Shown: one piece after another, positions 1,453 to 14,510 of the stretch | Numbering within the stretch: the first letter of the stretch is position 1 | How the letters are laid out: each line of letters begins with the position of its first letter | NCBI GenBank assembly: GCA_000827205.1 | Contig: KN832564.1 | Coordinates: 27,080-91,079, forward strand | From: Plicaturopsis crispa FD-325 SS-3 | Taxonomy: Eukaryota > Basidiomycota > Agaricomycetes > Amylocorticiales > Amylocorticiaceae | Direction: 5' to 3' | Length of the DNA: 64,000 nucleotides | Made by a program: the position numbers and the translations under genes | The notes under the pieces: generated by a model | Told to the model about the DNA's origin: nothing | What the model saw: only the letters and a program-made list of their open reading frames with translations | The model's database searches: none

Positions 1453-2333
1453 CTACGGGTGCAAGGACGCCCGCGACAGCAGCCACTCGTCGGTTTGACG
1501 GACAGCATCCTCCCATATATCATCTCCATCCCTCGCGCGGCGCTCCCAATCCTCCAGTGTAAGCCGCGCACCCGTCGCATACAGCCGCCCATCCGCCTCC
1601 CTCGCCCCCCGAAACCACTCCGCAAACGCAGCCTCGTATGGCTTGTCCCCGGAGAGCACGAGCGCCGCGATGTCCGCATGCTCCTCTAGCGTTCGCAGGA
1701 CCGTTGGGCACACCATCTCCTGAGGGCCCGCGTAGAGCGCGATCCTCAGGTGCGTGAGCTGTGCGAACGCGCCAAAGGGATCCGGCATGCCGGGCCAGCC
1801 CGTGAGCACGCATGCATCGAGGCGCGTGACGCAGTCCAAGAAAATGGGTATGGGCCGTGGCGCCTGGGCGCTTATGCGCGCGAGCGCGTAACTTACATGA
1901 AGAGGAAGTCCCTGTTTGGGTCGGTATATACGCCAGCTAGCGTGATGTGCAGTTCGCGCGAGGGCGGAAGCCCCGTATTTCCACTGATGGTGCAGCCGTA
2001 TAGTAATGCTGGGAGCATGGCGATGTTGGTGAGATTTGGACAGCGCTGCACGATGCGGTAGCACAGGGTGCCACAGTCGTCGCCATCAAACATCAACGAG
2101 GCATTTTGAACGAGCAGTGCGCGCGGTGCATCCTGATCCAGAAAGTGGAGGAAGGCCGATGCGGCGGTGGCGCTGCGCACGACGACTGTGCTGAGGAGGG
2201 ATGGGAGGGTGAGACGGCGCGTCCAGGATGCGACGAGGGCAAGAGCAAGGCAGTTGTCCAGTGAGGATGCAGCTGCAAATCGAAATATGTGGACTATGAG
2301 CTCGCTGGGCAGACGATGAAATGGTATGGACTC
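1453..2333 (-). pseudogene. F-box gene 1, main body, split by a LINE
   Basis: Minus-strand member of the local F-box family. The F-box start (FHRLPSELIVHIF) is near 2320 and the conserved tail (EWFRGAREADGRLYAT, then DGDDIWEDAVRQTDEW) ends at a TAG at 1453-1455. The reading frame changes by one base near 1897, just after NRDFLFM, so the body is already two frames. Upstream of 2333 the gene stops abruptly: its first codons lie at 12240-12269 on the far side of a LINE. F-box proteins normally recruit targets to SCF ubiquitin ligases through Skp1; no substrate can be inferred. Directly after the stop is GTGAGTATTCGG, followed by a likely 60-nt 3' intron (1452-1393) ending CAG/GTCCACGC, as in the paralogues. 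Two separate lesions make a functional product unlikely. Confidence 0.85.
2319..2333. repeat. Left copy of the LINE target-site duplication
   Basis: AAATGGTATGGACTC here is repeated exactly at 12240-12254, directly after the LINE A-tail. The first A residues may belong either to the tail or to the target. Rejoining the flanks at this repeat restores the F-box N-terminus in frame. Confidence 0.9.
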
Positions 2334-2439
2334 CCATCCTGTACTGTCTCTACTGATATGAAAATACGAACTGTGTTCACCGAACGAGAAGGGGAAACAA
2401 ACCTGCCCACACCAGGACTCGAACCCCCTCACCTCACTT

Positions 2440-2488
2440 CTGGTTTCGTTTTTGCCGCGCCACTGTGGCGCGGCAAAAACGAAACCAG
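2440..2488. repeat. 49-nt perfect palindrome in LINE 5' UTR
   Basis: Two 24-nt arms (2440-2463 and 2465-2488) are exact reverse complements around a single central T at 2464. The centre reads CCGCGCCAC-T-GTGGCGCGG. This would form a very stable RNA hairpin in the LINE transcript or a cruciform in DNA. It lies about 110 nt inside the 5' end of the element. Function unknown; in hairpin form it might act as a structured leader. Confidence 0.9.
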
Positions 2489-2941
2489 GAAGTCTCAGGG
2501 GCTAAAACACGAATTAAGCAATAATTCAGCGTACTCGCGCAAACACGCCTGCAGCATGCAGAGCAAACATAACTGCGTACACTCCCCTAGTAAGGATTGG
2601 GCCCAACAAGGACAAAGGAGTGTCACAGCAGGGGGCCAAATGGGGTGTCCCAAAAGATTAAAATAAGAATTAACTAAGGCCCTAAAAATGGGACACCTCG
2701 AAACTCAGGGCGCCCAAATATACTGGCTACCTGTAGCACAGGAAAGCGCCTCGAGAACAATGTACTTAGTACACCAAACGGCGGCCTATTTAGGCCTGGG
2801 AGTGCCGTGCTGAGAAGCTTAAGTCGCTGTGAAACATTTGTGCCCTGCCCAAACAGGGTGCAGACAAGTAATGCCGACATATCCCCCCGTGGTAGACAAT
2901 TAAGTCACGGTCCGGGTCAAGACCATCCGCCCCCATGCTGA

Positions 2942-5725
2942 CGTTGTAGGCAGGGTGTCGTATACGCAACTACTTCTTTCAATATAAACCCACCCTTAAA
3001 TCTGGTTGCAATAAACGGTATAGGTTCGAGCTTCTCTAGACCTGGAGGAGTGCAAGGCTCGTCCGTCGGCATTGCCTCCAATGATAGGTCCGGAGATCAC
3101 GGAGACGGAACGCACTCTGCTCAAGGGCATCGCGGTCCGGAGCCTGACTCTGCAGTGGCAGGAGGAAGCAGCGAGTATGCCATCCAAGCTTCCGATGAAC
3201 GTCAAGGTGAGCCTGGCGATGATGGCCGTAATGCCCCTGGACAGGGCCTTGGTACACAAGGAATCAGTGTATATACTGGAGGATCACGTATAGTGTCCTC
3301 AGGCAACAACAGCCAACAGGTCAATAGCAGACCTAGCAGACCCGCTTCAGCCCAACCGCAAGGATCAGACATCCACAACCTAGGTATTGTGCAAGGGGAC
3401 CAATTACAAAATGAGTATATGGAGCCCCCCGAACAAGACGAACAACAGTATAATGAAGAGCCTCAAGACAATGAACCAAATAACCTGCCCGATAATAACC
3501 ACGGCCACGAGCCAATACCGCCCCGCAGAAACCACAATCTAACGACCCAAAAAAACACACGAGCAACGCTGAAAATTGCCTCCATGAACATACGGGGACG
3601 GGGATCCATTAACGGGAACAGCCAAGACAACAAATGGTTCCACATTAACCAGATCATGAAAGAGAAAAGACTCGGAGTTCTAGCGATACAAGAAGCGCAC
3701 CTCACGGATGAGCACGTCAGCGACCTCCACAATTTATTTGGCAAGCGTCTTAAGATACTACATTCTGCGGACCCGGAAACACAGAATGCGAGAGGGGTTG
3801 CAGTAGTACTCAATAAAGATATAACTGACACAGCCAATGTCATTCAACGAGAAATTATACCAGGACGAGCCATGCTAGTTACGATCCCGTGGCACTCGAC
3901 TCTAACACTCACAATACTGAATATATATGCACCAAATTCCACAGCAGAAAACAAACAATTCTGGACTGATCTACAGCTCAAATGGGAAGCAGAATCCCTA
4001 GCAGTACCCGATATTATGCTTGGAGATTTCAACCTAGTAGAGGATGCAATAGATCGCTTACCATGCCGCGGTGATGCTCATGCTGCAGTCGACGCTCTGC
4101 GACAATTCCGAGAATCCTTACAACTTGAGGACGGTTGGCGTAGCACAAACCCCACGACTAAAATGTTCTCATACTTCCAGGATGCAACTGGATCACACTC
4201 CCGCATCGACCGCATCTATGTCTCCCCCGAAATAAAAGACTCAGGCCGGAACTGGGAAATTGAACCATTAGGAATCGCAACCGACCATCGGATGGTCTCA
4301 GTCAATGTCATTGACCAGAAAGCCCCGTTCATCGGACGAGGACGGTGGACCATGCCATTACACCTCATCCAAGACAAGGAGCTTACAAAAGAAATACACA
4401 GGCTCGGCTTGATACTGCAAGACAGGATTGAGCACAACAGATATAACCGAACAGAGGAGACCAACCCACAGACGCTCTTCAAAAAATTCAAAGACGACGT
4501 AGTCGCAGCCACCCGGACCCGTGCACGAGTAGCTATCCCAAAAATGGAACAGAAGATTAAGTCCTTGAGAACAAAGTTAGATACCCTACTCAACGACGGA
4601 GATGTTGGCACTGACCAGCAACTAGAATCGGCAGCGCTGATACAACGTGAAATACTACGCTTAGAACGAGACCGCCATAAGACAGCGCGAACGACAGCGG
4701 CGGCCCGCAACAAACTAGAGGGCGAGACGATAAGCAAATACTGGTCACAAATTAACAAAATACGCGCACCACGAGACACAATGTATGCCCTGAGAATACC
4801 AATGAGCGACCCGCCAAGGTACGAAGACCGATCGGAAAGAATGGCCGAACTTGCGCGAGACTACCACTGCAGGCTGCAAGAGGATGCAGCGGAAATTGAC
4901 GAGGACTACCGCGCCGAAATAACTATGGATGTCCTGGACAACATCAGTCGCGCTGCATCACCGGCAGACCGGGTAAACCTTGCGAGCCTGCTCACCAAGC
5001 AAAATATACTAGAAGCCCTTAAGAAATCGGAGAACGGCAAGGCTACGGGAGTGAATGGCTTACCATACGAATTCTGGAAAGCACTAGATCAGAGGTACAA
5101 AGAAGACGCAAAACACAACCGCACCAAATTCGATGCGATTAAAACCCTACAGAATGTCTACAATGACATTGAACGCCACGGAGTGTCAGACAACACCGAC
5201 TTTGCTACTGGCTGGATGTGCCCAATCTACAAGAAAAAAGATAAGCAAGAGATAGTAAACTACCGGCCCATTACACTACTCAACTGCGACTATAAAATCT
5301 TCACAAAAGCCCTGTCAATCAAACTAGCTGATGTAGCCCCTTCCCTAATACACGAGAATCAGGCGGGCTTCGTCAAAGGGCGGAGTATCACTGACCAGGT
5401 AAAGCTAACCAAGCTTATGGTAGACTACGCAGAAGCCACGGAGGAGAACGGGGTTATCATTGCGCTCGATCAGGAGAAAGCGTACGACAAGATTGCGCAC
5501 GATTATCTCTGGCAGGCACTCGAGAAATTCCACCTACCACAACACTTCATTAGAATAGTTCAATCTTTGTATAGATCAGCAGATACAACGGTTATGGTCA
5601 ACGGGTGCCTCAGCTCAACATATAGAGTCACTAGAGGAGTCCGACAGGGAGACCCGCTATCCTGCCTGCTGTTCGACCTAGCAATCGAGCCCCTTGCCGC
5701 AATGCTCCGAAACTCGGATATGAGA
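2942..5725 (+). CDS. LINE polyprotein part 1: endonuclease and RT (motifs up to B)
   Basis: Open frame running from after a stop at 2939-2941 to the nested insertion. No ATG occurs until well inside: the frame is open through a GTG at 3050, and the first good in-frame ATG is near 3419 (MEPPEQDEQ). About 170 residues of disordered Gln/Asn/Pro-rich sequence precede the APE-type endonuclease (ASMNIRGRG, AIQEAHL, LGDFNLVED, SRIDRIYVS, TDHRMVS). The RT follows with fingers (NYRPITLLNCDYKI), ENQAGFVKGRSITDQ, motif A (IIALDQEKAYDK) and motif B (RGVRQGDPLSCLLF). It then breaks in AAMLRNSDMR where the TIR element entered; the next codons are at 8967. The endonuclease nicks the target and the RT primes on it. 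Confidence 0.85.
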
Positions 5726-6109
5726 CATCAGGAAAATCACTTTTGCTATATAGAAGACTGATTTTCTGATGTGAAATTATAGATAAGATGTAACTATCAT
5801 AGCTACTATAGCTGTAACAGATTTTCTTAATCAAGTCATTGAACTTTCTAAATTTGAATCGTGATTTCAATGTTTCTATCATAGCTGTAATAGCTCTAAT
5901 CACAAATTATAGTCCATAAGCCAAAAAAATCAGAGTTAACACAGAAGAGCATTATCATACTATTATAACGGACTACTTAAATGTGCTACGTGCTAAGATG
6001 AGAGGCGGCGGCAACGTGTCGTCCAGTGTGCGCGCGCGAGGCTGCGTGCCCATGGTCATGCGCTGAGGGTGGCTGTTGGGATGCATTCGCGTGAGAGTGC
6101 AGCGGGAGA

Positions 6110-7385
6110 GAAAGCACCGGTGGTGCGTGTTGCGGTTGCGCGCCGTACATAGAAGGAGTGCGGTGGGCCCGAGGTGGTGTGCTGCGGGAAGGAGGGAGGC
6201 GGCGACGGGTGGAGTGACGACGACGAGACGCCGGCTGGCGTCTCGTTTCGTCGTCATCGTCTCGCGTGCGAGACGGCAGGCCCGTCGTAGTTGCTGAGGG
6301 TGGAGGCAGGCGGTGGCGGCTGCAAAAGCGACAACGACTCGGACGAGACGCCTCCTGGCGTCTCGTTGTCGTCGTCTCGCGTGCACCGGCTCGCAGCGCA
6401 CGGGACGGCGGGTCCGTGGTGGTCTGCTGAGGATTGAGGGAGGCGGGAAGCAGTGGCGGCGGGGGCAAAGCGACAACGACGAGACGCCGTCTGGCGTCTC
6501 GTTTCGTCGTCGCCATCTCGCGTGCACGGACTCGTAGCGCACGCGAGACGGCGTGCCCGTCATAGTATGCTGCGGGAAGGAAGGCGGCGGCGGCGGCGGT
6601 GGGTGGAATGACGACGACGAGACGCCGGCTGGCGTCTCGTTTCGTCGTCGCTGTTTCGTCGTCGCCATCTCGTGTGCACGGGCTCGCAGCGCGCGAGACG
6701 GCGGGCCAGTGGTGGTGTGCTAGGGATGGAGGAGGGCGGAAAGCGGCGGCGGCAGGGGGAAATCAACAACGAGACGCCTGTTGGCGTCTCGTTTCGTCGT
6801 CGTCGTCTCGCGTGCACCGGCTCAGAGCGCGTGCGAGACGGCGGGCCCGCGGCGGCGTGCTGGGGATGGAGGAGGGCGGAAGGCGGCGGTGGCAGGGGGA
6901 AATCGACGACAACGAGACGCCTGAAGTTGGCGTCTCGTCTCGTCGTCGTCGTCCTGCGTGCACCGGCTTGCAGCGCGCGCGGGACGGCGGGCCCGTGGTG
7001 GTGCGCTGTGGGAAGGAAGGCGGCGGCGGAGGTGCCACCGTGGGGGGTGGAGTGACGACGACGAGACGCCGGCTGGCGTCTCGTTTCGTCGTTGCTGTCT
7101 CGCGTGCACGAGCTCGGAGCGCGCGCGAGACGGCAGGCCCATAGTGGGTGCTGAGGGTGGAGGAGGGCGGGGGCGCCGGGGAAAGCAACGACGACGAGGC
7201 GCCGGCTGGCGTCTCGTTTCGTCGTTGCTGTCTCGCGTGCAAGGCCTCGCAGCGCCCAAGATGGCCGGCCCGTGGTGGTTGGCTGATGGTGGAGGAAGGC
7301 GGAAGGCGGCGGCGGGGAAAGCAACGACGACGAGACGCCGGCTGGCGTCTCGTTTCGTCGTCGCCGTCTCGCGTGCACGGTGTGT
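6110..7385. repeat. Nine-unit GC-rich minisatellite with hairpins
   Basis: The decamer GGCGTCTCGT begins at about 6238, 6358, 6493, 6631, 6783, 6929, 7075, 7209 and 7344, giving unit lengths of about 120-152 bp (mean near 138). In most units it is preceded by its own reverse complement with a 4-nt loop (ACGAGACGCC-GGCT-GGCGTCTCGT), so each unit encodes a perfect or near-perfect 10-bp stem. Between stems lie GGCGGCGG-rich spacers. Long open frames on both strands here are products of base composition and periodicity; none looks like a real protein. Confidence 0.85.
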
Positions 7386-7388
7386 GAG

Positions 7389-7660
7389 TGTGCACGCGAC
7401 CTGGTGCCGACTGGCGTCAGCGGTGTTGGTGCCGACGTGCACGCCGGGTTGGGTGCAGACTCCTGGTGGCCGGCGCTCACGGGCGCGTGTGTGCGTGTGC
7501 GTGCGAGCTGGTGCCGACTGGCACTAGTGGTGTTGGTGTCGGCGCGTACACCGGGGGCGGACATCTGTTGGCGCCTGCGGACTCGCGGGGATTTGCGCGC
7601 GCGCACTGGTGTTGATGTGTGCGCGGGGCTAGACGGGCACCTCCTGCAGGGGGTATCGTG
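7389..7660. repeat. Second short GC-rich tandem repeat
   Basis: Directly after the nine-unit array lie at least two diverged copies of a ~112-bp unit starting CTGGTGCCGACTGGC (about 7400 and 7510), with GTGTGCGTGTGCG runs between them. It belongs to the same nested TIR element. No coding signal. Confidence 0.55.
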
Positions 7661-7882
7661 CACGTTATGCACGGTGGATGTGCTGCAGGCCGGGAACTGA
7701 CAGGGATATTAAATGAGCAAGATCAAAAAGAAAAACGGCGCACCTAAGCCGATGTCCACCACATAATCGCCCGCTGAACTACACTATTCATCAAATTGAA
7801 TGAACCTTTCATTAGTATGTGCAAAGAGCAAGACTGGAGGCCGGTAAGATGGACTTAGTGATTTCGAGACGAAAGTTGCGAG

Positions 7883-7920
7883 CGTGGGAACGAGTGCAAA
7901 GCACTGCACTTGTTCCCACG
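7883..7920. repeat. 16-bp hairpin inside the TIR element
   Basis: CGTGGGAACGAGTGCA and TGCACTTGTTCCCACG form a 16-bp stem with one mismatch and a 6-nt loop. It lies about 1.05 kb before the element's right end. The role is unknown. Confidence 0.75.
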
Positions 7921-8966
7921 GAAATTTTATCGTCGTCGTCTTGTCGTCGTCGTTTGCTGTTCACCACCACCCCACTCATCCTTTTTACTGCTGAGTACTG
8001 AGTACTACTGACTGCAATTTTTTCTATCCACAGGGCATTAGATCCACTCGCACATTTGGACGTTTGTGGACACGGAGGGAACAGCTAGCAATGCTGCGAG
8101 GTGCGTTCACAATCACCCTTTCATAATTGTGTTGAAGACGATTATGCCAGCGCACGTACTCGTCCCAGCCACTGCTGGCTCGGTTTACAGAGCGCACACA
8201 CTAATTACCATCTTTGTTCTGCAGGAATTTACACCAGCGCGCCTTCACATCAACCAGGCTGCCAGCACAGCAACCTCCGCGTGAATCAGTGCCATGTAAG
8301 TTTTTCTCTTTCTTTCTCATACATTCTTTGACGTATACTACTTTTAGGCCCTGACGCACATGCTCACCGTGCCATGATCCCACGCACCCCACGTTAGCAC
8401 GCCCATGGCAGACCAGGTACGTTGTCAGCCCATGCAGCCAGAAGACGTGCATCATCCTGATGCCTTGACACATGCCTACATAGAAACGGCGACACAGTGT
8501 ACACTATTGCGAGCTTCGAGGTGAGACGGCAACCGGGGCGTATGGGAGTGGTTGTGCAGGGTTATGAAGGGGGGCAGTACTTTTCTAATGATGATTCAAG
8601 GATAGTTAGGGAGGTTTGAGGAGGACTGGTGAAGTAGGGTACATGTTTGACGTAGTTATAAATGTCTTATAATGTATTTAGTTATTATAAATGCAACTGT
8701 TTTCCCTCTTTCTTTTGCTATCTGTCATAGTTCCTATAGTTCCAATAATCAGCGCCCAAAATCAGTGAAATTAGGCCTATCTATTACAGCTATAGGCCAA
8801 CTATAACAAGCTATAAATGTATAAGGCCAAAAAAGTGCAACTATATAGTAGGTACTACTCTAGGAAAGCTATTGTTGCTATGACATCTATATAGCTGGAA
8901 AAGTCTACTATAGTTGCAAAAAATTGGCTATAGCTCACTATAGTTCTCAGGCTTTTTCCTGATGGA

Positions 8967-10210
8967 GGCTACAACATCCCGGGTGTTGCAGATAAGATCA
9001 TCACTACCCTGTTTGCAGATGATACGACGACTTACCTTGCGGAGTCTGACAACTACGATGACCTACAGGACATACTTCAAAAGTGGTGTATATCGTCAAA
9101 AGCAAAGTTCAATACTGAAAAAACAGAAGTCATACCGATAGGCACAGAAGAATATAGATCAGCGGTCATTGAATCAAGGCGTTTAAACCCAGATCAACAA
9201 CCGCTACCTGCGAACATCCATATTGCAAAGGATGGCGAACCGGTCCGCATACTGGGATCCTGGATCGGAAACAAAGCCGACCAGGCGGAATCCTGGAACA
9301 GAGTCGTCAATAAAATAACCACGAGCCTAACACAGTGGGGGAAAAGTCACCCTACACCCGATGGCAGACGCCTAATAATCATTATGGTTGTGGCAGGAAT
9401 GACCCAGTACCTGACAAAAGTACAGGGGATGCCGGATGAGATCGAGAAGACCCTTGAAAAAACAATCCGCGACTTCATGGCGGACGGGGGACGGCCTCTA
9501 GTGGGAATGTCCACGCTGCAGAAAGGGATATCGGACGGCGGGAAGAAGGTTCTGGACCTCACCGCCCGGAACAAAGCAATACAGCTGATGTGGCTGAAAT
9601 CGTTCCTAGACCTAACAGATAGACGCCCGGCATGGGCATTTGTAGCGGACAGACTCATCAATATGAATGTTCGACGCACCTCCGGACAGGTCGCTGACCT
9701 ATCGAAAGTCAACATGTATCTCCAAACATGGGAGGCAGCAACTGGAAAGGGGTCACATCTGCCCCGAGACCTAATCAATATGCTTAAAGTAGGCAGGAAA
9801 TACCATGTATCTTTTGACGCACTGAAGCTACCAGTGGCAACAAAGAAAAAGCTCCCGCTGTGGTACCACATTGGAGCAAAAGACCACCTCAATAGACTAA
9901 ACAATAATAAGCGAAGCTCATGCCTCCGGGTGAAACATGCAATACTCACAGTTCAGGACGCACTCGCAATGACACGCCGGACAGAGATAACAACGCGCCG
10001 CCACTTTGACAGGGTGAACTGTGCATGCCCACCGTGCAAGGATGACCGAGAACGGCTGGGCTGTGATAAACCAAATAAGTGCTACCACGCAGCGAAGCTA
10101 CTGTTAGCGCAGCTGCTCCCAAAATGGGACCCAACACTACAATCACCCCACGAGATAATCTTACACTCACGAGGAACCGAATCACCCAGAATGATGTCGC
10201 CCGTGCAACC
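8967..10210 (+). CDS. LINE polyprotein part 2: RT palm (FADD) to thumb
   Basis: Continues the RT frame after the nested element: GYNIPGVADK, then the catalytic motif C as TLFADDTTTYL (around 9020), followed by the KAKFNTEKTEVI and ILGSWIG segments typical of the RT thumb in LINEs, and a Cys-rich segment (CACPPCKDDRERLGC) before the frame closes at 10223. The RNase H section is in a different frame that overlaps it, so one base was gained or lost between about 10150 and 10200. Without the upstream half this piece has no start of its own. Confidence 0.8.
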
Positions 10211-11635
10211 GACGACCAGATAACCTTCAACCCATCAGTTAGCATGCCTGACGACCTCTCACAAGGCTTCCGAGTATTTACGGAACTAGGTGCACGATGC
10301 CAGGACCCGGCATACCGCCGTCGTCGAGCATTTGAAGTCCCCGAAGAAGCGGTCACGGTCTACACAGATGGATCGTGCTTCAATAATGGTGATGACAACG
10401 CGAGATCAGGAAGCGGCCTGTGGTACGGACCTGAAGACCCCCGCAACAAAGCGATCAGGATACCTGGCGACAGACATTCGAACCAAATCGGTGAAATGGT
10501 GGCTGCCCTCGAAGCAGCACATCACAACCCACCCTTCGCACCACTACTCATCAAGAGCGACTCGAAGTATGTCATAGATGGACTCACCAAGCACCTCCAG
10601 GAATGGGAGGACCGGGGCTGGATAGGTGTAGCCAACAGCGACTTCTGGCGCCCCATGGTCGCAAGGATGCGACAACGTTCAGCACCGACACGTCTACAAT
10701 GGGTCAAAGGTCACAGCGACGACGTGGGAAATGACGGGGCAGATGAGCGAGCGGACGCTGGGGCAAACAAAGTGATCCCCGATGAAGTCGACCTAAGCAT
10801 CCCACCAAAATTCAACCTAACGGGGGCCCGCATGGCAACCCTGTCACAATCATTAGCGTACCAAGGCATCCGCGCGGCGAAAGCTAAGACAACAGAACGC
10901 ACCTCGACCATAGTCTCCCTCGACATGGCAAGACATGCCGCCCTAGATATCAGTGGAAAGATCCCCACTGACACGCGTATATGGCGATCAGTCAAATCAA
11001 AAGACATCTCCAGAAATATACGGGAATTTCTCTGGAAATGCCTGCATAACGCATTCAGATGCGGCAAATGGTGGCAAAACATACCTGATCACGAACACCG
11101 CTCGGTATGCCCCCACTGCGGGGTAGAGGAGTCTATGGAGCACATACTCACAGACTGTGATGCACCCGGACGAGCCATAATCTGGAAATTAGCGAGCAAG
11201 CTATGGCGCAAGAAACACAGTGTCTGGCCGGTGCCTACCTACGGAACAATAATGGCAAGCGGCCTGGCAGAGTTCACCGACAACGACGAACATAAACGCC
11301 CAGGCGCGGCACGCCTCTATAGGATAATAATGTCAGAATCTGCACATCTCATCTGGAGAATTCGATGCGAACGACGAATATCGAGGGGCGACGACCCGCA
11401 GCTGCACCACTCCAAAATGGAAGTACATAACCGCTGGCTACACGCGATCAACACGAGACTCACGCTTGATAGAGCCATGACTAACCGAATGAAATATGGA
11501 AACAAAGCACTGCCCTCAAAGACGGTGCTGAATACATGGAGCGGCACCCTGATGAACGAGGACGCCCTGCCAGACGACTGGATCCGACAAGCTGGGGTTT
11601 TAGTGGGTATAGGGCCTCATACACATCCGGGATAA
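10160..11635 (+). CDS. LINE polyprotein part 3: RNase H and zinc knuckle
   Basis: The RNase H domain shows all four catalytic acidic positions: Asp in VYTDGSC (about 10360), Glu in GEMVAALEA, Asp in IKSDSKYVIDGL, and the terminal WVKGHSDD...GADERAD with His/Asp. A C-terminal knuckle follows (CPHCGVEESMEHILTDC, about 11110), then a basic tail ending at 11633-11635. RNase H removes the RNA from the RNA:DNA hybrid; its presence after RT marks the Tad1/I side of the LINE tree. The frame is open upstream to 10079, overlapping the RT frame. Confidence 0.85.
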   Translation, partial: LTLTRNRITQNDVARATDDQITFNPSVSMPDDLSQGFRVFTELGARCQDPAYRRRRAFEVPEEAVTVYTDGSCFNNGDDNARSGSGLWYGPEDPRNKAIRIPGDRHSNQIGEMVAALEAAHHNPPFAPLLIKSDSKYVIDGLTKHLQEWEDRGWIGVANSDFWRPMVARMRQRSAPTRLQWVKGHSDDVGNDGADERADAGANKVIPDEVDLSIPPKFNLTGARMATLSQSLAYQGIRAAKAKTTERTSTIVSLDMARHAALDISGKIPTDTRIWRSVKSKDISRNIREFLWKCLHNAFRCGKWWQNIPDHEHRSVCPHCGVEESMEHILTDCDAPGRAIIWKLASKLWRKKHSVWPVPTYGTIMASGLAEFTDNDEHKRPGAARLYRIIMSESAHLIWRIRCERRISRGDDPQLHHSKMEVHNRWLHAINTRLTLDRAMTNRMKYGNKALPSKTVLNTWSGTLMNEDALPDDWIRQAGVLVGIGPHTHPG

Positions 11636-11800
11636 TATGTCCCGAGGTCCCTAAGTCCCACACTGTCTGCTACATGGAGTAGCGGTCGTGCTGAGCGGTA
11701 CTTGTACTGCCACCGAAGCATTTCCCCAGGGTGGACTTACTATACATACGGGGTGCAATTTAAAGAACCGAATGGGACCTTGAGGGACGCGCAAGTGCCG

Positions 11801-11962
11801 CTAGATGCAAGATAGCAAACTCAGTCGTCGTGAATATAAGTGAACGACTATATTATGTACCTAGATGCAAGATAGCAAACTATAGGTACAGTAAGTATTA
11901 AGTAGCTTTAGTGTAATAGCAATGGAACATACCTCAGTCGTCGTGAATATAAGTGAACGACT
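11801..11962 (+). repeat. Interleaved repeats and stem-loops in LINE 3' UTR
   Basis: Repeat A (CTAGATGCAAGATAGCAAAC) lies at 11801-11820 and 11861-11880. Repeat B, 29 nt, lies at 11821-11849 and 11934-11962; its ends (CAGTCGT / ACGACTG) are inverted, so each copy can fold into a stem with a loop of about 15 nt. In the second copy the stem extends to CTCAGTCGT/ACGACTGAG. LINE reverse transcriptases often recognise 3' UTR structures; that role here is inference. Confidence 0.8.
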
Positions 11963-12239
11963 GAGGAAAAGAAAAGAGACGCGACGCGTCGAAAAGTCCA
12001 TGAAGTTCCGAGATCCGAATAAACGTCCGAAGGAAGTTCACTTAGGGGCTAAGTCCAAATAAGGAAATAGGAAAGGAACGAGAACGTATACTATGGTAAA
12101 TGTCCATTCACAACACAATTCCCCGTAACATTCATGCGGGCAGGCCGGGCTAACTTTGTTACAGAAGGGCCGAGCTTCCACTACGGACGCGAGGCCACTC
12201 TTACGCTGCGACCTGCCTTAACGCTCCACCAAAAAAAAA

Positions 12240-12269
12240 AAATGGTATGGACTCGGAGGTATCCGCCAT
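12240..12269 (-). pseudogene. F-box gene 1, displaced start codon and first codons
   Basis: Immediately beyond the LINE tail and the right target-duplication copy (12240-12254), the minus strand reads ATG (12269-12267) then codons for MADTSE. Joined across the duplication to the body at 2333 this gives MADTSESIPFHRLPSEL, matching paralogue starts such as MSDTSAPFHRLPDEL and MSDTPTPFHRLPDEL. This is the original N-terminus, now about 10 kb from the rest of its gene. Confidence 0.85.
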
Positions 12270-12949: not shown

Positions 12950-13316
12950 ATCCTCTGTATAATCTACGTTGCTGCTGCTGCCTCTTCAGCGGAGAATTGC
13001 CTTGCCCTTACGCTCGTAGCAAGATGAACGTGACGCCGTCTTCCTCAGCACGGTCGCCCTCCGCAGTGCAGCCGTCGCGTTGGCCTTCCTCCACTATCTA
13101 GATCAGGATGTATTGCGTGCCTCACTCGTTCAAAACGCCTCCTTAGCATTTCACGGTGACAACTCTGGCCAGGATCTCTTTCACCTGGACGGACGCTCAG
13201 GTTCTGCTGGAGGAGTGGGAACTCCGGGTGAGGGATGGAGGCGATGTATGGAAGGATGCTGTCCGCCAAACCAAGGATTTGCGGGTGTCGCGGGTGTCTG
13301 TCGCTATACTTAGGTG
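12950..13316 (+). pseudogene. F-box relic 2 (internally deleted)
   Basis: The N-terminal part (AAASSAENCLALTLVA, then a decayed stretch and LDQDVLRASLVQNASLAFHGDN) is followed directly by the C-terminal part (LEEWELRVRDGGDVWKDAVRQTKD). The 150 or so residues that lie between these in intact paralogues are missing, and frames change. A TAG followed by GTGCAT marks the old end. Confidence 0.8.
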
Positions 13317-13611: not shown

Positions 13612-14510
13612 ATGTCCGACACCTCTGCACCGTTCCACCGCCTGCCCGACGAACTCGTCGTGCACATATTCCGACTCGCCGCTGCATCTTCTCTTGAGAC
13701 CTGTGTTGCTCTCGCACTAGTCGCAACCTGGACACGCCGCCTCACCCTGCCCATCCTTCTCCGCACGGTCGTCCTCCGCAGCGAGGCCGCCGCAACTGCT
13801 TTCATCCACATTCTAGATCAGGATGCATCACGCGCACTGCTCGTAGAAAACGCCTCCTTGGAGTTCTGCGGCGAAGAACGTCGCGATCTGCATTATAGCA
13901 TCATCCGCCGCTGTCCCAATCTCACCAACATCGCCATGTTTCCCGAAGGGTTCTGCGATCTTGCCGGCCTGGCACTGATCAACACCAACATCATCGCTCC
14001 CGCCTCCCGCAAGTTGTGCATCTCAGTACCCAGCGTCGCTGCCTCGACTGGTGGCAGGCCGCACTCCCCATCCTTCACCACGCGCTGCTCTGCATCCTCC
14101 TCAACACGAACCGCAGCGCGTCCCCCGCGCCGCCCCTTTTCGCCCACGTAGCCCACCTGGACGTCTCCACCTACCCAGATGCCATCCCCAACGTGTTCGC
14201 GCACCTCACGCACCTGCGCGTGTCCGTCGATGACCTGGACGGGTGCCCGGATGTAGCGACGGAAATCCTGCTGAACAACGCGAAGCTTGAGATGCTGGTG
14301 CTCTCCACGCGTGGCGTGCACTACCGCGACGACGAGGTCGCGGAGTGGTTCTGGGGTGCGAGGGAGGGGGATGGGCGACTGTATGTGACGGGTGCGCGGA
14401 GTACGCTAAGGGAGTGGGAGCGTATGGCACGGAGAGGGGGGGACATATGGGAGGATGCTATCCGCGAAACAGAGGAATGGCGGTTGTCGCGGGCGCCCTT
14501 GCTACTGTAG
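13612..14510 (+). pseudogene. F-box gene 3 (one frame change)
   Basis: ATG at 13612 gives MSDTSAPFHRLPDELVVHIF, then the family core (RRCPNLTNIAMF, SRKLCISVPS). Near 14040-14070 the match to paralogues moves to another frame (AHLTHLRVSVDD, EWFWGAREGDGRLYVTGAR, GGDIWEDAIRETEEW) and ends at TAG 14508-14510, followed by GTGAGTATTCGG. No GT-AG pair explains the change, so a one- or two-base indel is likely; a sequence error is possible. Confidence 0.75.

Follow-up and report, generated by a model that had tools for sequence, protein, structure and literature searches.

The window analysed here, a 64,000-nucleotide stretch of Plicaturopsis crispa DNA (bases 27080–91079 of contig C11), raises the question of how the start codon of an F-box-like gene came to lie about 10 kb from the rest of that gene. 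The locus holds a copy-and-paste transposon with a textbook 15-base footprint just past the start of a gene in a tandem cluster, and it is best explained by the insertion of a LINE, through target-primed reverse transcription, at the start of an F-box-like gene that has been tandemly duplicated, a reading to which we assign a probability of about 95%. Genome searches covered the 33.2-Mb assembly (49 contigs). The features on which the argument rests are the following, in window coordinates.

1453–2333, minus strand: F-box-like gene body, frame broken near 1893–1900
2319–2333, plus strand: left copy of the 15-bp target-site duplication, exact match
2334–12230, plus strand: LINE (non-LTR retrotransposon) carrying two younger insertions, with endonuclease (EN), reverse transcriptase (RT) and RNase H, relatives on contig C18 and a common 3' end
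12231–12242, plus strand: A-tail of 9–12 A, its junction ACGCTCCACC-An also present in two C18 copies
12240–12254, plus strand: right copy of the 15-bp target-site duplication, exact match, first three A common with the A-tail
12255–12269, minus strand: first codons of the F-box-like gene, now severed, with the ATG at 12267–12269

When the flanks are joined, with 12269–12255 on the minus strand running straight into 2333 and below, they read MADTSESIPFHRLPSELIVHIFRFAAASS and remain open for 151 codons; the joined reading has its ATG first, starts MADTSESIPFHRLPSELIVHIF and contains MADTSESIPFHRLPSEL. Alignment to seven sister genes (F2 to F8, the split gene being F1) gave amino-acid identities of 53–65%, for F7 over 69 codons only, and confirms the observation of the first-pass annotation that the joined flanks agree with the N-termini of the sisters on the minus strand. 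The start codons of the sisters are at the same position as the joined ATG or within a few residues of it (F4 and F7 are a few residues off), and F1 has two extra residues ahead of PFHRLP relative to the sisters. The earlier proposal that one LINE insertion moved the start codon about 10 kb from the gene body is supported as well. Relative to the gene the LINE is in antisense orientation, and some 10 kb now separates the body from the ATG and first codons upstream of it. The body no longer has the start codon or the MADTS residues; it still holds ESIPFHRLPSEL, because codons 6–10 are duplicated. Its upstream frame now enters the antisense 5' end of the LINE, where a stop is met before any ATG, and F1 has presumably lost its function.

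F1 belongs to a tandem cluster, and among the 52 matches listed in a genome search with sister F3 as query, the best five are all within it. The same search returned no uninterrupted allele of F1 in the assembly; the best match outside contig C11 is 42% identical to the query, and the body of F1 itself gives 60% and 49%. The family had been called F-box, a name that the profile searches support weakly and that is not established by them: the Pfam family PF12937 (F-box-like) matches three of seven members with a best E value of 0.01, three further Pfam families match one member each (E values of 0.021, 0.042 and 0.2), and no PDB chain matched the gene-family profile at E values up to 10. The L, P, E and L of LPxEL are invariant in seven members, and F-box-like appears to be a fair label. 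On the right flank, upstream of the severed ATG, the motif CCTCAAATATGCTAT was seen by eye at least five times between 12440 and 12720.

The LINE is not the only lesion of F1. The body itself breaks frame near 1893–1900 (FLFM, then a stop), which may be a sequencing error, and sister F2 (13612–14510) shifts frame within the same stretch, where a pseudogene or a sequencing error may be among the explanations. A short intron at the F1 break was considered and rejected: a GTAAGT is present, but the sole later in-phase AG, sought by eye in the printed stretch, would make an intron of 26 bases, which is too short, and a frame break is the likelier reading. Because the body carries this break, and F2 likewise in that stretch, damage to F1 may predate the LINE, in which case the insertion would have hit a pseudogene without functional effect. 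This sequence of events, which is compatible with the insertion itself, is a tentative possibility that falls somewhat short of even odds. Against it, the first 137 aligned codon columns show no poorer conservation in F1 than in the sisters, and past the break the other frame is open to the end of the gene. Unique amino-acid changes at otherwise invariant columns among these 137 number one in F1, compared with 4, 1, 5, 2, 2 and 7 in F2, F3, F4, F5, F6 and F8, a count that covers seven of the eight genes (F7, whose frame breaks early, was omitted, and the fragment at 13038–13214 was unused).

The inserted element is recognizable as a LINE by its coding content, which is distributed over three open frames.

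3050–5725, plus strand: LINE open frame with the endonuclease and the first part of the RT (PF03372, E 6.8e-11; PF00078, E 1.8e-27)
8967–10223, plus strand: LINE open frame encoding the remaining RT, broken near 10160
10079–11635, plus strand: LINE open frame with RNase H (PF00075, E 7.6e-23) and a weak zf-RVT (PF13966, E 5e-4, below its cut-off)

As in APE-type LINEs, an APE-like endonuclease is followed by the RT in one frame, both at 3050–5725 and in the C18 relative; the element has no LTRs of its own, the sole LTR within it being a solo LTR that came later and is flanked by a separate duplication, and its A-rich 3' end stands beside the target duplication. An EN-RT query found seven matches in the genome, the window copy included. 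Among the others, C18:23797–25947 is 77% identical over residues 1–717 of the 718 in the query and belongs to an open frame of 1825 amino acids; C18:360443–361909 is 80% identical over residues 230–718 and has three TAG codons inside, a match on contig C37 is 57% identical over residues 412–717, and the three others reach 26–27%. Domain matches in the open C18 frame are EN, RT, RNase H and, below its cut-off, zf-RVT; among solved structures, the LINE-1 ORF2 protein matches this frame best (E 1.8e-46). The earlier description of the whole insert as a LINE holds in that one LINE spans 2334–12230, but 3.6 kb of this length is two later insertions, leaving about 6.3 kb (reckoned by hand) as the LINE's own sequence.

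At the 5' end of the element, two further features have to be considered.

2334–2440, plus strand: first 107 bases of the insert, unmatched elsewhere in the assembly at E values up to 1
2440–2488, no strand: perfect palindrome with 24-bp arms and a 1-nt centre; 13 sites in the genome have its 27-bp core

5'-truncated LINE insertions also carry a target-site duplication. The duplication marks the start of the insert and does not show the element to be complete there, since truncated insertions have one too; the assertion that it proves the LINE 5'-complete is therefore not borne out, the first 107 bases having no second copy and similarity to the longer C18 copy starting only at 2440/2441. The LINE is nevertheless likely to be full length at its 5' end, because the endonuclease is present and about 0.7 kb lies upstream of the EN frame. 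LINEs are often 5'-truncated, and about 7,000 of 500,000 human L1s are full length according to the passage of the review that gives these numbers (PMC2881922). The first-pass annotation had called a complete 5' end rare, a description that suits this genome poorly: of the two other copies found with the common 3' end, one extends to the palindrome and has the frame of 1825 amino acids, and the other is truncated or rearranged.

The lack of a counterpart for 2334–2440 could also mean that the insert is a LINE beginning at the palindrome near 2440 and preceded by 107 foreign bases, acquired by a template jump or by 5' transduction. In favour of a foreign origin, no alignment was obtained between the 107 bases and the sequence upstream of the palindrome in the longer C18 copy (the score of 20 was reached by 30 of 200 shuffles). 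However, no donor for them was found in the assembly, and the 5' end of that C18 copy is itself not fixed: its 3' flank is given as N, which prevents a search for its duplication, and nothing convincing was found around the other, shorter C18 copy. The 5' UTRs of LINEs diverge fast, which could also explain the missing match. We regard such foreign bases, which would be compatible with the insertion, as unlikely, and a full-length LINE as the preferred reading. At 2415 on the minus strand, the 107 bases match the tRNA B-box consensus perfectly, the only such match in the window. A tRNA-derived 5' end was rejected, as ARAGORN predicted no tRNA in the window, Rfam gave nothing at gathering scores, the T-stem is unpaired by eye, and the 23-mer there recurs nowhere in the genome at up to three mismatches.

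The edges of the insert are drawn by the repeat AAATGGTATGGACTC, which is exact at 2319–2333 and 12240–12254 on the plus strand, precisely where the earlier annotation had placed a 15-bp repeat bracketing the LINE. These are its only two matches in the 64-kb window at up to two mismatches, a result obtained in 0 of 100 shuffles, and the expected number of exact chance copies of a 15-mer at the edge of the A-tail in 12.2 kb is about 1e-5. The A-tail had been described as 12 A abutting the right repeat. The run at 12231–12242 is indeed 12 A and adjoins the repeat, but 12240–12242 double as its first three bases and the two overlap; the tail proper is 9–12 A, because three of the 12 belong to the repeat as well. 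Both ends of the LINE had also been considered fixed to the base. The 3' edge is fixed independently, because the two C18 copies end at the same ACGCTCCACC-An, that is, at ACGCTCCACC followed by A's as in the window copy, whereas the 5' edge is given by the repeat alone. That the repeat arose by chance or is an older repeat, with the two gene pieces coming from different genes, is conceivable in a cluster of many similar genes lying close together but highly improbable, as the repeat is exact, sits at the edge of the A-tail and occurs nowhere else in the window, and the joined reading is in frame and aligns with the sisters across the junction.

The two insertions nested in the LINE are bounded by duplications of their own.

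5726–8964, no strand: nested DNA transposon with ends CATCAGGAAAA/TTTTCCTGATG, GA duplication at 5724–5725 and 8965–8966, interrupting the RT
11761–12115, minus strand: nested solo LTR, probably of copia type, 5-bp duplication CAATT at 11756–11760 and 12116–12120

The first is 3,239 bp long and belongs to a dispersed family, many copies of which start or end at these bases to within one; GC-rich tandem repeats with a period of about 146 occupy 6263–7380. It is a DNA transposon of non-autonomous appearance, and the uninterrupted C18 relatives are without it. The long C18 copy lacks both nested elements, and its distance from palindrome to A-tail, about 6.19 kb by hand, is that of the window copy less its inserts. 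The 355-bp repeat at 11761–12115 recurs at four other places with a rounded identity of 100% over 355–356 bases, and in further copies. It is read as a solo LTR because of its TG...TA ends on the minus strand; some of the other copies run on into common flanking sequence, and a 5-bp duplication (GTTAT) accompanies one of the other copies. The solo LTR is probably of copia type, an assignment based on a neighbouring stretch resembling the complement of the anticodon loop of the initiator tRNA. It is probably very recent, and its near identity to the other copies suggests that it is younger still than the LINE insertion.

The arrangement suggests the following course of events. The LINE RNA would have been reverse-transcribed into the gene start by target-primed reverse transcription, with the first nick made in 5'-CCATTT^CATC-3' on the minus (gene-sense) strand, where TTT could pair with the A-tail. 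A second nick 15 bases off on the other strand would have produced the 15-bp duplication over codons 6–10. Later, the DNA transposon would have cut the RT of the LINE, and an LTR element, probably of copia type, would have left its solo LTR in the 3' UTR of the LINE. The three LINE coding pieces, 5,337 bases in all, contain no stop codons, which limits neutral divergence to less than about 1.4% at the 95% level, a bound that assumes even substitution and no selection after insertion and omits a few bases around the LINE frame break. The insertion looks young, because the coding pieces are without stops and F1 has few unique changes.

The least ordinary item of the locus is the palindrome at 2440–2488. 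A search with its 27-bp core at up to three mismatches found 13 sites, 12 exact and one with two mismatches (on C17), and the reversed control pattern found no sites in the genome. Eight sites lie in one repeat family, two in LINE copies, one between tRNA genes, and one each on C9 and C17. The eight-locus family, whose members are 96.8–100% alike in alignments over 80 bases, probably consists of LTRs. In the two LINE copies that have it, the core is identical, though the copies are otherwise 73–78% identical. At the tRNA locus (L006), the palindrome stands between two inverted, divergent tRNA genes at 1328–1418 and 1701–1791, both called tRNA-Stop by ARAGORN, probably through a misplaced intron. 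An inverted-repeat transposon around the palindrome on C13 was rejected, since two tRNA genes lie within the flanking inverted repeats. Matches to miRNA families at the palindrome, the best scoring 54.5 bits (L003), are all below the family gathering scores and in some cases occur on both strands, and are taken as a hairpin effect. The palindrome might be a small module common to unrelated mobile elements, either a captured promoter or hairpin or a mobile mini-hairpin, though this seems quite doubtful; a narrow literature search found no report of a fungal palindrome common to transposons. If transposon types did trade it as a module, the palindrome would matter more than the insertion.

The locus provides a base-level insertion footprint for a low-copy fungal LINE with an open-frame relative in the same genome, and a case of a tandem-cluster gene split by a transposon; the mechanism itself is not new. 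The element resembles LINE-1 (through its ORF2 protein) and APE-type LINEs in general in its endonuclease and RT, its A-tail and its long target duplication. In contrast to LINE-1, the open frame runs on into RNase H beyond the LINE-1 match, and a separate ORF1 was not noticed. New LINE insertions have been observed in the mushroom Marasmius oreades, where, in the portion of the report that names them, LINE-6 is Inkcap and LINE-7 is Tad1 (PMC9674265). These are likewise LINEs inserting in a mushroom genome, whereas the insertion described here is one state in one assembly. The fungal Tad-type element LINE-Tad-RtPc5 is alike in having EN, RT, RNase H, an A-tail and a length of about 6 kb; it is given as 5905 bp with two ORFs in the section that describes it (PMC4427930), in contrast to the single 1825-codon frame of the open relative here. 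On the whole, the locus offers a clear and well-documented but unremarkable instance of a familiar process, the insertion of a LINE into a gene of a tandem family.
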